Origin: Bacteroidota bacterium
GTDB taxonomy: Bacteria; Bacteroidota; Ignavibacteria; Ignavibacteriales; Ignavibacteriaceae
NCBI GenBank assembly: GCA_022562275.1
Contig: JADFPP010000003.1
Location: 1 to 64,000 of the forward strand
Reading direction: 5' to 3'
Length of the DNA stretch: 64,000 bases
Made by a program: the position numbers and the translations under genes. Numbering within the stretch: the first letter of the stretch is position 1; each line of letters opens with the position of its first letter. The notes beneath the pieces were generated by a model. The model did no database searches, had not been told where the DNA came from, and worked only from the letters and a program-made list of their open reading frames with translations. Shown piece after piece: positions 57,114 through 63,644 of this stretch.

Positions 57114-57152
57114 AGTATTATATACTATCTGATCTTCGGTCAATAGTCATTG

Positions 57153-57583
57153 GTCATTGTGTCATTGGACTAATTATTTTTCCCTATGGCGTTAATATAA
57201 TTGTTTAATTTTTTCCCAATCACATCGAGCGAATTTATAAAATTATTAAAATCATTATTAGAAATTAAATTTCTGTTGTTAGCTTTTGTAACCCAGGTTC
57301 TTGTTTCAAAGAGTGAACCTCTTGAGTAATAACAAAACTGTCTGTTCTCTTTATAAAAATATCTACCGAATCCCTCACTAAGATTTCAGCTATTGAGTCA
57401 GCAGACTTGACCAATTGTTTGCCAACTGTATCTTTTTCAAAATAATTCCATTTTGCTACTATATTCCATATTTTCTCCCCAAATTCTATAGATAACTGAT
57501 AAACCTGCAATTCTTCTAAGTTCATAATTATAGCTATTTAATATTTCAAAAAATGTTTTATAGAGGACTAATGACATAATGAC
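57153..57583. mobile_element. Possible inverted-repeat-bounded cassette with four-helix-bundle pseudogene
   Basis: GTCATTGTGTCATTGG (57153-57168) and CTAATGACATAATGAC (57568-57583) are complementary at 14 of 16 positions. They bracket the four-helix-bundle pseudogene closely on both sides. Four-helix-bundle proteins of this family are known from 23S rRNA intervening sequences, which end in inverted repeats. The ATGAC motif is also repeated nearby (57644-57680), so chance is not excluded. Confidence 0.35.
57170..57525 (-). pseudogene. Four-helix-bundle (23S rRNA IVS-type) protein, frameshifted
   Basis: The first 48 codons read LEELQVYQLSIEFGEKIW then WNYFEKDTVGKQLVKSADSIAE, the conserved start of the S23/IVP four-helix-bundle family. 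Then the frame shifts near 57380. In the other frame it continues EGFGRYFYKENRQFCYYSRG, SLFETRTWVTKANNRN and further, to a TAG at 57170. Two extra bases (or one lost) explain it. Without the shift the protein would be about 117 residues, the family length. The surviving 86-residue frame has a meaningless end. Confidence 0.88.
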
Positions 57584-57643
57584 AAGTAACTAAATAATTT
57601 CGCTCCACTTTTTATTTATTAAATTATTAGAATAAAATCCTTT

Positions 57644-59009: not shown

Positions 59010-60443
59010 TTATACAATTAATTTATTCATAAAATCTTTTATCGTCATTTCTTCACAATTAAATATCATTTCTTTAATCTGATAAATATTTTCGTCATTA
59101 AGCAATTCATTTGAGAGCGCACTGAATTTATTATCCAGATCTTCCATAGTCATCGGCTCTCTCGGATCACCTTTTGGATACTCAAGATACTCAGAATATT
59201 CATTACCATCGATAGTTTTAACAACAACATTTGAAGGCTGTTTTGCAGGAAACATTTTTTCAAATTCAAGAGATGGTTCCCCTTTTATTTTATCAATCAC
59301 TTCCCAGATGCGTGGGTCTTTTAGTTTTTCATCACTGAATGACTGGGTTGTAATTTTATGATCAACCAAAGCTGCAGCGATGCAGTAGGGGAGTGAATGA
59401 TCCGCTGTTTCTCTCGATTCAGGTCTGTATTTGTGCGGATCGAAAAGAATATCATAAGCTTGTGCCAATGTGGTTAAGGTTACAGATTCTATTTGATCAT
59501 AGCTGATATTGTTTGTTGTTACAACTTTTAATGTTGCCGATAGATGTGTGTGGGTTAATGCTTCTGTAGGGAATGCCTTCATACTGCATTCCATTATTTT
59601 ATAACTTTCGCCTAATCCACCAAGCAAGGCATCAATATTCCAACTCCACTCGTTTAAGCCATCTCTTCCTTCCATTTGTACAGGTTTTACTTTTTGATCT
59701 TTAGTATCCCAGCCAAGGAAAGTATCCATAAGCCCTTCTTTACCTTCAAATACTGCCTCGGTTCCGCTAAATCCTTTTTGTGCTAAAAGTGCAGCAAACA
59801 CTCCTGCCTGCACTGCCATCGGATCAACTGTGTTTTTCATCATCGTTAACTTACCTGCAGTGGGGCAACCGATTGTGTGATTGTGGCATCCACTGATACC
59901 AATGGCATTAACCATTTGGTCTTCATTCAATCCTAATAATTTTCCTGCAACAATTGGCGATACAAACTGTGTAAGTGTAGCATGATGCCATTTGCGCTCA
60001 CGCACACCCGGAGTTGCGAACAAACATAATCGCTGTTCAAATTCATAAGCAAGAACAATTGCCGTAATAACTTCTTTCATTGATGCACCGACAAGTTCTC
60101 CAATTGAGAATGCAGCAGGAATAATATCCGATGGATGACAAGGGTCTTCTTTCCAATAGATATCATTAAAATCCAAAGCGCGTATCATTAATGAGTTGAC
60201 AAGAGTTGCATTAACGGCAGGAAGTTTTTCACCAAATCCTATTATTGTTGATTCACTTTTTCCACCCATGTCTTTGTAAATATCTCTGATAATATTTACA
60301 TCTTTAGTATGATAGCCTCCAAACGCACAGCCGATTGAATCGTATAAAAATCTTTTAACTTCATGAACTACTTCTTCTGGTAAATCTTCATATTTAAGTT
60401 TAATTGCAAATTCTGCCATTTGCCGTGAGATTGATTTGCTCAT
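59010..60443 (-). CDS. MmgE/PrpD family protein
   Basis: The 477-residue protein starts SKSISRQMAEFAIKLKYEDL and has the family motifs FLYDSIGCAFGGY, ALDFNDIYWK, HPSDIIPAAF, and AVQAGVFAALLAQKGFSG. MmgE/PrpD members include 2-methylcitrate dehydratase and cis-aconitate decarboxylase. Both act on tricarboxylates like those of the neighbouring genes, but the actual substrate is not known. The conserved AT-rich element lies 5 bases before its ATG. A fossil of the start of a second copy lies at 61052-61153. Confidence 0.88.
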   Translation of the reverse strand: MSKSISRQMAEFAIKLKYEDLPEEVVHEVKRFLYDSIGCAFGGYHTKDVNIIRDIYKDMGGKSESTIIGFGEKLPAVNATLVNSLMIRALDFNDIYWKEDPCHPSDIIPAAFSIGELVGASMKEVITAIVLAYEFEQRLCLFATPGVRERKWHHATLTQFVSPIVAGKLLGLNEDQMVNAIGISGCHNHTIGCPTAGKLTMMKNTVDPMAVQAGVFAALLAQKGFSGTEAVFEGKEGLMDTFLGWDTKDQKVKPVQMEGRDGLNEWSWNIDALLGGLGESYKIMECSMKAFPTEALTHTHLSATLKVVTTNNISYDQIESVTLTTLAQAYDILFDPHKYRPESRETADHSLPYCIAAALVDHKITTQSFSDEKLKDPRIWEVIDKIKGEPSLEFEKMFPAKQPSNVVVKTIDGNEYSEYLEYPKGDPREPMTMEDLDNKFSALSNELLNDENIYQIKEMIFNCEEMTIKDFMNKLIV

Positions 60444-60448
60444 AATTT

Positions 60449-60534: not shown

Positions 60535-61055
60535 TTAGTCTATGGTAAAACCTATCTTCTTTTTGGGAGAAACAGTCGGTGTAACTAGTTGATTTATCAC
60601 TTGAATTATCTGAACAATTTGATTGTCATGTTCTTTAAGCTTTGTTTCCAGCTCTTTCAATTTTTCTTCAACCTTTTTGTTAGTTGATATAATTTCTCTA
60701 AGTTTTACAAAAGCTCGCATTATTAGAATGTTTACTTCAATCGCTCTTTCGCTATTCAATACAGATGAGAGCATTGCAACGCCTTGCTAAGTAAATGACA
60801 TCGGATTAGCACCACCCAAGTAACTTTTAGATGGTATCACATTTTGTGACTCCAATTGATCAATTTCCTTTTTGATTAGAACAAACATAAAATCGGATGG
60901 AAATCTTTTAATATTTCTTTTAACAGCTTGTTTCAATGCGCATGTTTCAACTTTGTATAGAAATGCCAGGTCTCTATCCAGAATCACTTTCTGATTCCTG
61001 ATAACAGAATTTTATTTATTGCATTTTCTGTTGGTATTAATGATTTTGCTGTCAT
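60535..61055 (-). pseudogene. ORF6N-domain DNA-binding protein, two lesions
   Basis: From ATG at 61055 the frame reads MTAKSLIPTENAINKILL. It then shifts by one lost base near 61002 into NQKVILDRDLAFLYKVET and KQAVKRNIKRFPSDFMFVL. A TAG at 60787-60789 replaces the conserved GAG in PMSFT-stop-QGVAMLSSVL. The rest (NSERAIEVNILIMRAFVKLRE, coiled coil) continues to 60535. ORF6N proteins are phage-type or repeat-associated DNA-binding proteins. Two independent lesions show that the gene is dead, yet each part is still well conserved, so decay is recent. Confidence 0.88.
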
Positions 61056-61153
61056 AAGGAATTTGTAATTACGTTAGTTACTTCTTCTGGTACATCTTTA
61101 TAATTAAGAATGATTACGAATTTTGCTATTTGGCCTAAGATTGATTTTTGCAT
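61052..61153 (-). pseudogene. Fossil 5' end of a second MmgE/PrpD gene
   Basis: From the ATG at 61153 the frame reads MQKSILGQIAKFVIILNY then KDVPEEVTNVITNSL-stop. The intact gene begins MSKSISRQMAEFAIKLKY then EDLPEEVVHEVKRFL. DNA similarity is clear over about 80 bases (CTTCTTCTGGTA, TTTGC). Beyond this the copy is replaced by the ORF6N pseudogene. Confidence 0.8.
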
Positions 61154-61173
61154 ACACGATCCTCAATAAGAAT

Positions 61174-61596
61174 TTAATGGAACGCTGATCTAACTGATCG
61201 AACGGATTTAAACTGATTTTTTATAGATGTTCTCAAAAATCTTTCTTTTAAATTGAGGTTTTTTACCAAAGTTAAATAAAAACCAACTTCAATTTCAGTT
61301 GCTTTTAAATAATTTAGTAATTGTACTTCGTGTTCCTCTACTAATCCTTCAGCAGCTTTTAATTCAATAATAACTTTATTCTCGACAATTATATCTGTAA
61401 AGTATTCTCCAACATTGTATCCTTTAAATGAAACTGATATAGGTTTCTGTTTTTCGCAATTCAATCTGAGAGATTGTAATTCAATCATTAAAGCATTTTC
61501 GTATACTTTTTCCAAAAAGCCGTAGCCAGGTTCATTATATACATTATAATAAGCTTTTATAATTTTTTCTGTTAAACCTTGATGCAGATATTTCAA
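61174..61596 (-). CDS. GxxExxY protein (PD-(D/E)XK nuclease-like superfamily)
   Basis: The 140-residue protein has the namesake GYGFLEKVYENAL (G-x-x-E-x-x-Y, near residue 27) and the nuclease-fold core EYFTDIIVENKVIIELKA (D and ExK, near 65-78), then LNYLKATEIEVGFYLTL. The family is predicted nuclease-like but uncharacterised, and often occurs in many copies per genome. Start is TTG with an in-frame TAA immediately before it. The C-terminal SVRSVRSAFH is encoded by the left inverted repeat of the flanking pair. Confidence 0.88.
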   Translation of the reverse strand: MKYLHQGLTEKIIKAYYNVYNEPGYGFLEKVYENALMIELQSLRLNCEKQKPISVSFKGYNVGEYFTDIIVENKVIIELKAAEGLVEEHEVQLLNYLKATEIEVGFYLTLVKNLNLKERFLRTSIKNQFKSVRSVRSAFH

Positions 61597-61638
61597 TTAA
61601 TCAGTTCCCATCTGTTTAATCTGTTAAATCAGTGTTCT
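61179..61638. mobile_element. Putative GxxExxY cassette bounded by 29-bp inverted repeats
   Basis: The sequence at 61179-61207 is complementary to 61610-61638 at 22 of 29 positions (core ATCAGCGTTC against ATCAGTGTTC). All but one of the differences are C/T or G/A changes. The pair brackets the GxxExxY gene. The left copy encodes the end of that protein, and the right copy supplies the stop codon of the hydratase gene. Confidence 0.55.
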
Positions 61639-63644
61639 ATCGTGTTCTTCACCCAGTTCTCCAATCCACCGGCAATGATAATCTCCTGTGCGGCTTCGCC
61701 AACAGGATCAATGGAGTATTGCCTATCATCAAAAGTTATTGAAGAATTTCTAAAATCTATTCTTATTTTTTTATTTGTTTGAACTGTTAATTTTTCAGTT
61801 CCGAATTGTTTTTTCAAATCGTCGATGAGTTCCGGGCATTCAATTACCAAAAAACCGTTGTTAATTGCATTTCGTTTATATGTTTCGCTGAATGAACCGG
61901 CAATAATACAGGCAATGCCTTTATACTTAAGTGATGTAGCGGCTTGCTCGCGGGAACTTCCAGTTCCAAAATTGAAACCACCGACAATGATGTCTCCCTT
62001 CTTTGCAATCTTACTAAATTCAGGATCGTAATTTTCCATAACAACTTCAGCTTGCTGTTCTGGAGTGAAGTCATCTATGTAAGTGTATTTGCCGGGGTAA
62101 ATCCCATCTGTATTAAGATTATCCTGATGACAGAATATCAAATCACCTTCAATCAGTTCAGGAAAACCATGAAGGATTTTTACCTTTGGTTTATCTGCAA
62201 CAGATTTTGTGTTTACTTTAATTTCACCTATAATAGATAGATTATCATTCTGCCAATCAAAACCTGCCTGTCCGGTAGGCAGGTCAATCTTACCGGAAAC
62301 AGCAGATGCGGCAACAACGGCAGGGGAAGCCAAATATGCCTGGGCAGTTGGTGAACCCATTCTTCCTTTGAAGTTTCTGTTAGTTGCAGAAATTCCGACT
62401 TCGCCATCTTCGAGCAATCCCACACCTAAACCAATACAAGGACCACATCCCGGTGGGAGCGGCTTAGCACCTGCATCGAGAAGTGATTGCCAATAACCCA
62501 GTCTTTCGCATTCAGTTTGTACTTCACTTGATGCAGCAGCAATGTAAAACTCAACTCCATCAGCTACTTTTTTTCCGTTTATAATTTCCGCTGCTTCTTT
62601 TATATCTTCAACTCTGCTGTTTACACAGGAAATGAGATATGCTTTATCTATTTTTATATTCTGCTCTTTTAACTCGGAAATTTTTGTCATAATCTTTACC
62701 GAGTTTGGTCCCGATACATAAGGGTCGATTGATGAGAGATCGATTATTATTTCTTTCGAATAAAAAGCATCTTCATCTGCTAAGATGATATTTTTTTCTA
62801 TTTCGGAAATTCTTTCGTCATTTATTCTTGGATGTTTTCTGCCAATGGCATCCATACGGACATTTCCATCCTCATCAGAAGGAACACCTTCCAAACCTCT
62901 TTCTTCTATAAACGCCTTTCTTCGTTTCAACCAATCAAAAGTAACTTCATCAATAGGGAAGACGCCCGCAAGTGCACCCCATTCTGTGGTCATATTTGCG
63001 ATTGTAAGTCTTTCATTAAGAGAAAGATGTTTAACACCTTCACCAACAAATTCAACTGAATGATTTAAAACTTCATCATTATTAAAATAACCGCACAAAG
63101 CGATAATCACATCCTTGCCGGTTATACCTTTATGCAAGCTGCCCACAAATTCTACTTTAGCAATCGGCGGGACTTTCCACCATGTTTTTCCTGTTGCCCA
63201 GATAGCTGCTGCATCCGTACGCACGATGGGAGTTCCTAAACATCCCAAACCGCCGTACATATTGGAATGACTGTCAGACGCAACTACCATAGTACCCGGC
63301 CAGGCATAACCTTCTTCGCACATAACCTGATGACCGATTCCTCTTCCGGCAGGATAAAAATCGGCGCCCATCTCATTTGAAAATGCTTCGATCTTTCTGT
63401 ACTTCTCTAAATTTTTTTCACTTTTGTTTTGAATGTCGTGATCTAAGGTATGTACGACTTGCCTTGGATTAAAGAATTGTGTTGCTCCAATAGATTTAAA
63501 TTTAGGAATAACCGCTCCGGTATTATCATGCGTCATCACATAAGCCGGTTGTATCATAATATAATCACCGGAATGTATTTTATGATCAGGGGATAATCCC
63601 ACAGCAAATTTTTGTGCTATTTTTTCTATTAATGTTTGAGGCAT
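61629..63644 (-). CDS. Aconitase-superfamily hydratase, homoaconitase (LYS4)-like
   Basis: The 671-residue protein begins LIEKIAQKFAVGLSPDHKIH. It has VMTHDNTGAVIPKF, TLDHDIQNKSEKNLEKYRKI, FYPAGRGIGHQVMCEEGYAW and SDSHSNMYGGLGCLGTPIVR, a pattern I recall from fungal mitochondrial homoaconitase rather than from AcnA or AcnB. Iron-sulfur cysteines are in LISCVNSRVED and GCGPCIG, and the swivel domain is near residues 530-650. Substrate may be aconitate, homoaconitate or a methyl analogue. The segment DLPTGQAGF (about residues 452-461) comes from a palindrome inserted in frame. The final TIEH and stop lie in an inverted repeat of the GxxExxY cassette. Confidence 0.85.
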   Translation of the reverse strand: MPQTLIEKIAQKFAVGLSPDHKIHSGDYIMIQPAYVMTHDNTGAVIPKFKSIGATQFFNPRQVVHTLDHDIQNKSEKNLEKYRKIEAFSNEMGADFYPAGRGIGHQVMCEEGYAWPGTMVVASDSHSNMYGGLGCLGTPIVRTDAAAIWATGKTWWKVPPIAKVEFVGSLHKGITGKDVIIALCGYFNNDEVLNHSVEFVGEGVKHLSLNERLTIANMTTEWGALAGVFPIDEVTFDWLKRRKAFIEERGLEGVPSDEDGNVRMDAIGRKHPRINDERISEIEKNIILADEDAFYSKEIIIDLSSIDPYVSGPNSVKIMTKISELKEQNIKIDKAYLISCVNSRVEDIKEAAEIINGKKVADGVEFYIAAASSEVQTECERLGYWQSLLDAGAKPLPPGCGPCIGLGVGLLEDGEVGISATNRNFKGRMGSPTAQAYLASPAVVAASAVSGKIDLPTGQAGFDWQNDNLSIIGEIKVNTKSVADKPKVKILHGFPELIEGDLIFCHQDNLNTDGIYPGKYTYIDDFTPEQQAEVVMENYDPEFSKIAKKGDIIVGGFNFGTGSSREQAATSLKYKGIACIIAGSFSETYKRNAINNGFLVIECPELIDDLKKQFGTEKLTVQTNKKIRIDFRNSSITFDDRQYSIDPVGEAAQEIIIAGGLENWVKNTIEH
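62263..62283. repeat. In-frame palindromic insertion (LPTGQAG type)
   Basis: CCTGCCTGTCCGG then TAGGCAGG forms a 21-bp palindrome inside the hydratase gene. On the coding strand it reads as LPTGQAG without breaking the frame. A related palindrome occurs at 46254-46273 inside another repeat. Confidence 0.8.

Follow-up and report, generated by a model that had tools for sequence, protein, structure and literature searches.

GxxExxY genes between inverted arrays of short units: a candidate transposase-free mobile cassette

In REP/RAYT systems a small gene is flanked by palindromes, and related palindromes are found elsewhere in the genome, in intergenic positions. The 23S rRNA IVS of Coxiella is 428-444 nt long and contains an internal sense ORF within a terminal 28-bp stem (PMC4990558). 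Proteins of the named family GxxExxY are encoded in many bacterial phyla and in some Archaea, often in several copies per genome. The open-access literature, searched for GxxExxY, PF13366, TIGR02436, the repeat sequences and four-helix-bundle elements, yielded no description of an element of the kind reported here, and in open-access full text GxxExxY appears in passing mentions only. The locus considered here belongs to a Bacteroidota bacterium of the Ignavibacteriaceae and lies in a stretch of 64,000 nucleotides (contig JADFPP010000003.1), hereafter the window, which was compared with 59 related genomes and with GxxExxY loci from other phyla. The best reading of these comparisons is that the GxxExxY gene, with the repeats on its two sides, is an undescribed transposase-free mobile cassette.

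The window locus and its product

The GxxExxY gene of the window is located between two genes of the same strand and is framed by two arms in inverted orientation. The features of the locus are:

61174..61596, minus strand: GxxExxY gene, PD-(D/E)XK nuclease-like protein of 140 aa (putative), TTG start as listed; TIGR04256, PF13366
61599..61640, minus strand: 5' arm in gene orientation, ATAGAACACTGATTTAACAGATTAAACAGATGGGAACTGATT, an array of 9-bp ACNGAT-type units
61177..61218, plus strand: 3' arm, inverted copy, ATGGAACGCTGATCTAACTGATCGAACGGATTTAAACTGATT; its outer part provides the codons of the last ten residues of the protein
61177..61640, minus strand: putative whole element, about 464 bp, from comparison with relatives G033, G023, the empty G034 and others
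61629..63644, minus strand: host gene upstream of the element, of the aconitase family with homoaconitase TIGR00139 as best model; its C-terminus extends into the 5' arm
59010..60443, minus strand: downstream host gene, MmgE/PrpD family; where relatives have an empty site, it comes directly after the aconitase gene

The outermost bases of the element are placed to within a few nt, because a precise empty site was not found. A sequence-only reading of the window had reported inverted repeats at 61179-61207 and 61610-61638; these match at 22 of 29 positions after reverse complementation and, as was stated, differ mostly by transitions (six, with one transversion, among the seven differences). 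The repeats are therefore real, but their extent is larger than was described, about 42 nt each (61177-61218 and 61599-61640). They also double as coding ends, as had been noticed: the last ten GxxExxY codons are in one of them, while the stop codon of the aconitase-family gene (61629-61631) falls inside the other, the 5' arm. The two-arm consensus AACNCTGATNTAACNGATNRAACNGAT has no matches in the 64 kb other than the two arms, with up to three mismatches allowed, and 0 matches in 100 dinucleotide shuffles, a count that is not a p-value since the pattern was derived from the arms. A general inverted-repeat search of the window with 9-base seeds missed the pair, because the arms are arrays of degenerate ACNGAT units.

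The sole ORF between the arms is that of the PD-(D/E)XK protein, and no DDE, HUH, serine or tyrosine transposase is encoded there. The protein matches TIGR04256 (E 4e-34, 117.5 bits, cut-off 35) and PF13366 PDDEXK_3 (E 2e-35, 122.4 bits, cut-off 22). Residues G24, G26, E29, Y32, D68, E78, Q92 and Y96 are invariant over 58 sequences, and K80 is nearly so. The AlphaFold model (mean pLDDT 85, pTM 0.77) has its best structural match in Cas4 SSO0001 (Z 9.8), followed by restriction-endonuclease-like folds, Hjc (7.2) and lambda exonuclease (6.1). Both the modelled fold and the conserved E, D, ExK and QxxxY are those of RecB/Cas4-like PD-(D/E)XK proteins, and on this prediction GxxExxY is very likely an active nuclease of the RecB/Cas4 type.

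Arms and proteins across loci

Arms were compared at 170 GxxExxY loci, 80 from named genomes and about 90 from relatives; each locus was oriented by its gene, and the 5' flank was scored against the reverse complement of the 3' flank, with a threshold of 36. This score is reached in 62% of the loci, in many phyla, and clear arms are absent in the remaining 38%; the controls gave 3.1% for other genes of the same loci, 3.6% for arms paired across loci and 0.1% for shuffles. Inverted repeats are thus present in the flanks of other GxxExxY genes, where the sequence-only reading had proposed to look for them, at 62% versus 3% of control genes. In 113 of 122 loci the arms have a best period of 8-10 bp, and the types of unit (ACRCNGAT, CGCAAAG/CACAGAG, CACTAATT, AATCC/AGAATT, ACATAAGA) vary from locus to locus and agree inside one locus. 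The element has a median length of 494 bp, a median of 14 nt separates the end of the left arm from the start codon, and the right arm sets in at the stop codon.

Some orthologues clearly show the two arms evolving in concert; those of Chryseobacterium L076 and L089 give 0.95 within the locus and 0.79 between species. Concerted evolution is not seen overall (17 of 30 pairs), so that it is not claimed. Two of the three copies found in a WOR-3 MAG (L055, L057) have an extra hairpin insert, CACCCTGTTAAATAA...TTTAACAGGGT, in the left arm.

When arm type is placed on a tree of 115 proteins, 8 changes are required, where the minimum possible is 5 and the mean of shuffles is 47.5 (0 of 200 shuffles were that low); the tree rests on few columns and has many open forks, and near-copies inflate the clustering. 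Types were assigned from aligned arms, with some labels given by hand, strict regular expressions being too narrow. For loci of the relatives, arm type is correctly predicted by the closest protein from a different locus in 68 of 72 cases. The window's genome itself has one GAT-type, one RAG-type and one AAT-type GxxExxY copy, and RAG-clade proteins with RAG arms are found in Ignavibacteria, Thiotrichaceae, Opitutales and Parachlamydiaceae. Arm type tracks the protein tree rather than the host, and this congruence shows that the gene goes together with its arms as one unit. By itself it is no proof of recognition; linked inheritance alone could explain it.

A like layout is found around the genes of four-helix-bundle proteins (TIGR02436), which are present in 12 copies in the window's genome and in up to 20 in relatives. 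Their arms reach the arm score in 65% of 31 loci, compared with 1.3% across loci, and their units of 7-10 bp (GGCAGTA, AGAATGT, AATTACG and others) also vary by locus and match within a locus (L098-L108, L321-L349). GxxExxY and the four-helix bundle are two unrelated proteins in one architecture. The window has a broken TIGR02436 gene between inverted arrays of GTCATTG-type units at 57141-57610, 4 kb off, as a second element with this layout but a different protein.

Distribution, placement and orientation

GxxExxY copies range from 0 to 11 per genome in the 59 relatives, and several of them are decayed. The gap between the aconitase and PrpD genes contains a gene-bearing element in the window and in G033, a decayed element in G023 and gene-less hairpins in G001, G003, G006, G045 and G052, and is empty, with 22-31 nt, in G034, G035, G022, G019 and G024. 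Genome G045 has a gene-bearing element (L262) and two gene-less ones (L287, L295) in gaps that are without an element in congeners. The hemE-hemN gap is occupied by a RAG gene-bearing element in G054 and by a GAT gene-less hairpin in the congener G041, and has nothing in G036; its contents vary by type, and therefore different elements entered the same gap. The empty sites that the earlier reading wished to see sought in relatives were found, among other places, at the aconitase-PrpD, L262 and hemE-hemN gaps. Of the two outcomes that it had named as refuting, flanks without inverted repeats and loci that are never empty, neither was obtained.

For GxxExxY pairs of at least 70% identity, the two sites are unrelated in 178 cases and orthologous in 28; in one WOR-3 MAG three copies with 82-87% identity are at unrelated sites, and some sites are vertically common to a genus, as in Chryseobacterium. 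Comparison of the genomes thus establishes mobility over evolutionary time, and the earlier proposal of a small mobile cassette is well supported by the general occurrence of arms together with the empty sites. An ordinary operon gene with a regulatory stem, immobile, would agree with the sites common to a genus and with the strict sense orientation described below; however, it is contradicted by the patchy copy number, the empty sites and the different element types in one gap, as well as by close relatives at unrelated sites and several arm types per genome, and is hardly credible.

A homing-like origin, in which bare palindromes are older and the nuclease gene invades their centre, would make the arms the two halves of a target. 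Indeed, the arms of bare hairpins (69-82 nt) equal the gene-flanking ones in length, and the aconitase gap has bare and gene-bearing forms of one unit type. However, sites that bear the gene in one genome are wholly empty in relatives, with no palindrome (L262 in G052, hemE-hemN in G036), and the bare hairpin of hemE-hemN in the congener is of another type; such an origin is quite improbable.

The AATRG...CYATT ends had raised the idea of a target duplication of TA or AT, which was not upheld, because the ends differ (AATAG/CCATT) and the empty sites have diverged too far to define one. GxxExxY is found in 7 of 72,556 plasmid records and is absent from 50,697 phage records, and therefore seems not to travel on either.

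The first 100 bp of prpD are duplicated in the window (60344-60444 and 61054-61154), where they bracket a broken ORF6N gene (60535-60987). An intact ORF6N gene is found in the aconitase-prpD gap of G046, and fragments of the prpD start lie beside other small genes in G003, G006 and G038; the aconitase-prpD gap is therefore an insertion hotspot.

The gene-less hairpins of 69-82 nt amount to 36 copies in 14 of the 59 genomes, while the reversed control pattern gave 0. They are short and non-coding, with inverted repeats and several dispersed copies, as MITEs are, and mostly lie no more than a few nt from a stop codon; tandem genes flank 15 of them, convergent genes 5 and divergent genes 0. In the window's genome the repeat occurs at four further gene-less places, including hairpins on C73 (about 105 bp) and C53 (69 bp). 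Gene-less hairpins are present in 12 of 24 genomes with a GAT-clade GxxExxY and in 2 of the 35 others (p 1e-4, a statistic that ignores kinship); the association with other GxxExxY clades is weaker (p 0.01). Since hairpins with the same ends have spread in several genomes, and such repeats are commonly moved in trans, an unlinked transposase might recognise the arms, with the nuclease gene as a passenger. However, the window's genome has no other carrier of the repeat, and the arm types stay with the matching GxxExxY clades across phyla, which a shared outside transposase does not predict; this explanation appears improbable. Three gene-less hairpins of G045 (L285, L286, L291) are located within another inverted repeat, GAGACYTCTGAAAAAT...TTTTCAGARGTCTC, found at several places, which suggests that they were inserted, in nested fashion, into repeats of a second family.

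Placement behind stop codons is established by comparison of loci: the left arm begins a median of 4 nt after the stop codon of the upstream gene, a codon that is inside the arm in 29 of 107 cases, and also in the window. Between tandem genes GxxExxY is in sense orientation 131 times and antisense once, against 76 to 18 for control genes (p 6e-7), and for the six decayed copies where this could be assessed, the neighbouring gene upstream lies on the same strand. This near-absolute sense orientation, which the sequence-only reading had not foreseen, does not fit a simple two-ended DNA transposon and is the main misfit for the nuclease-driven movement proposed below; a DNA element with symmetric ends predicts no sense-only rule without selection. 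Selection for expression could account for the rule; alternatively, the element may be active as RNA. In the latter case, similarly to an IVS, the arms would pair in the transcript, the stem would be processed (e.g. by RNase III) and spread would be linked to RNA, leading to copies that are always sense. This agrees with the sense-only position behind transcribed genes, decayed copies too, with an anatomy equal to that of the Coxiella 23S rRNA IVS (PMC4990558) and with the presence in these genomes of the IVS protein family (four-helix bundle) in an equal layout. However, the differences between arms are not biased to pairs capable of G-U in the sense RNA (239 to 210, p 0.19), A/T transversions, which break pairing, are common between arms, 5 of 20 gene-less hairpins are between convergent genes, and the predicted protein fold is DNA-nuclease-like. 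An element spreading at the RNA level is a possible but rather unlikely alternative.

Proposed movement and relation to known systems

We give slightly better than even chances to the reading that the gene and its two arms are a mobile element of about 0.5 kb, moved by its own nuclease, which reads the arms, and inserted behind stop codons. The copy of the window would have been inserted at the stop codon of the aconitase-family gene, overlapping it, with arms made of inverted arrays of 8-10 bp units and, as a single product, a predicted minimal nuclease of the Cas4/RecB-type PD-(D/E)XK group. The nuclease would recognise and cut the arrays of units that make up its own arms and, in trans, those of gene-less hairpin copies; after the cut the element would be released or copied, and host repair would set it behind the stop codon of another gene. 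Read-through would then express the inserted gene, favouring sense copies, while the gene-less hairpins would be internally deleted relatives mobilised in trans. That the element's own nuclease acts on the arms and drives movement, as the sequence-only reading had suggested, may be inferred; it fits the conserved catalytic residues and the predicted resemblance to Cas4, as well as the agreement of arm type with protein clade and the fact that the element encodes no other protein.

There is a fair chance that GxxExxY elements are a class of their own. In a wider form, which we propose tentatively and rate somewhat below an even chance, they would be a separate transposase-free class of Bacteria and some Archaea, in which a Cas4-like nuclease moves its own gene by means of arm units of 8-10 bp, the specificity of the protein and the units co-evolve, and insertion is directed behind the stop codons of transcribed genes; four-helix-bundle (S23/IVP) genes would share this layout but combine it with a different protein and different units. 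If GxxExxY, a family so far without a known role, is the enzyme of an element of about 0.5 kb, the elements would be among the smallest self-contained mobile elements and would rest on a stand-alone Cas4/RecB-like nuclease; they would be a natural system where protein and DNA-repeat specificity diversify together, and would explain a class of periodic intergenic repeats (ACGCAGAT, CGCAAAG and CACGAAT arrays). Moreover, the layout common to four-helix-bundle genes makes the origin and spread of the 23S rRNA IVS testable.

GxxExxY elements are without one defining feature each of insertion sequences, REP/RAYT and rRNA IVS, yet they are like each of them. With insertion sequences and DNA transposons they have terminal inverted repeats in common, but they encode no transposase of the DDE, HUH, serine or tyrosine kind and do not insert freely in both orientations (131 sense to 1 antisense between tandem genes). 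They resemble the 23S rRNA IVS in size (about 430-500 bp), in terminal inverted repeats that measure about 28 bp or longer, in the single small sense ORF inside a transcribed unit and in sporadic occurrence; conversely, they are placed behind protein genes, their ORF is a PF13366 PD-(D/E)XK protein and not the S23/four-helix-bundle one, their arms are arrays of 8-10 bp units, and selection for RNA pairing was not detected in the G-U test. No rRNA was found in 20 scanned loci, and Rfam gave no match. The gene-less hairpins of 69-82 bp, with inverted repeats and dispersed behind stop codons, are like MITEs and other short palindromes, from which they differ in having a related gene-bearing form that encodes a nuclease and no known transposase; a target duplication was not found, the empty sites being diverged. 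As in REP/RAYT, there is one small palindrome-flanked gene with related intergenic palindromes elsewhere, but the protein is PD-(D/E)XK, not HUH/Y1, and the gene is inside the arms of the palindrome. Homing endonuclease genes are similar as small nuclease genes of patchy distribution, whereas the GxxExxY element brings its own arms, occupies many sites and is missing together with its arms from wholly empty sites. Finally, the predicted fold and the D...ExK and QxxxY residues are those of Cas4, RecB and lambda exonuclease; differently from these, GxxExxY is a single minimal domain of about 115-140 aa, which stands alone between its own inverted repeats.
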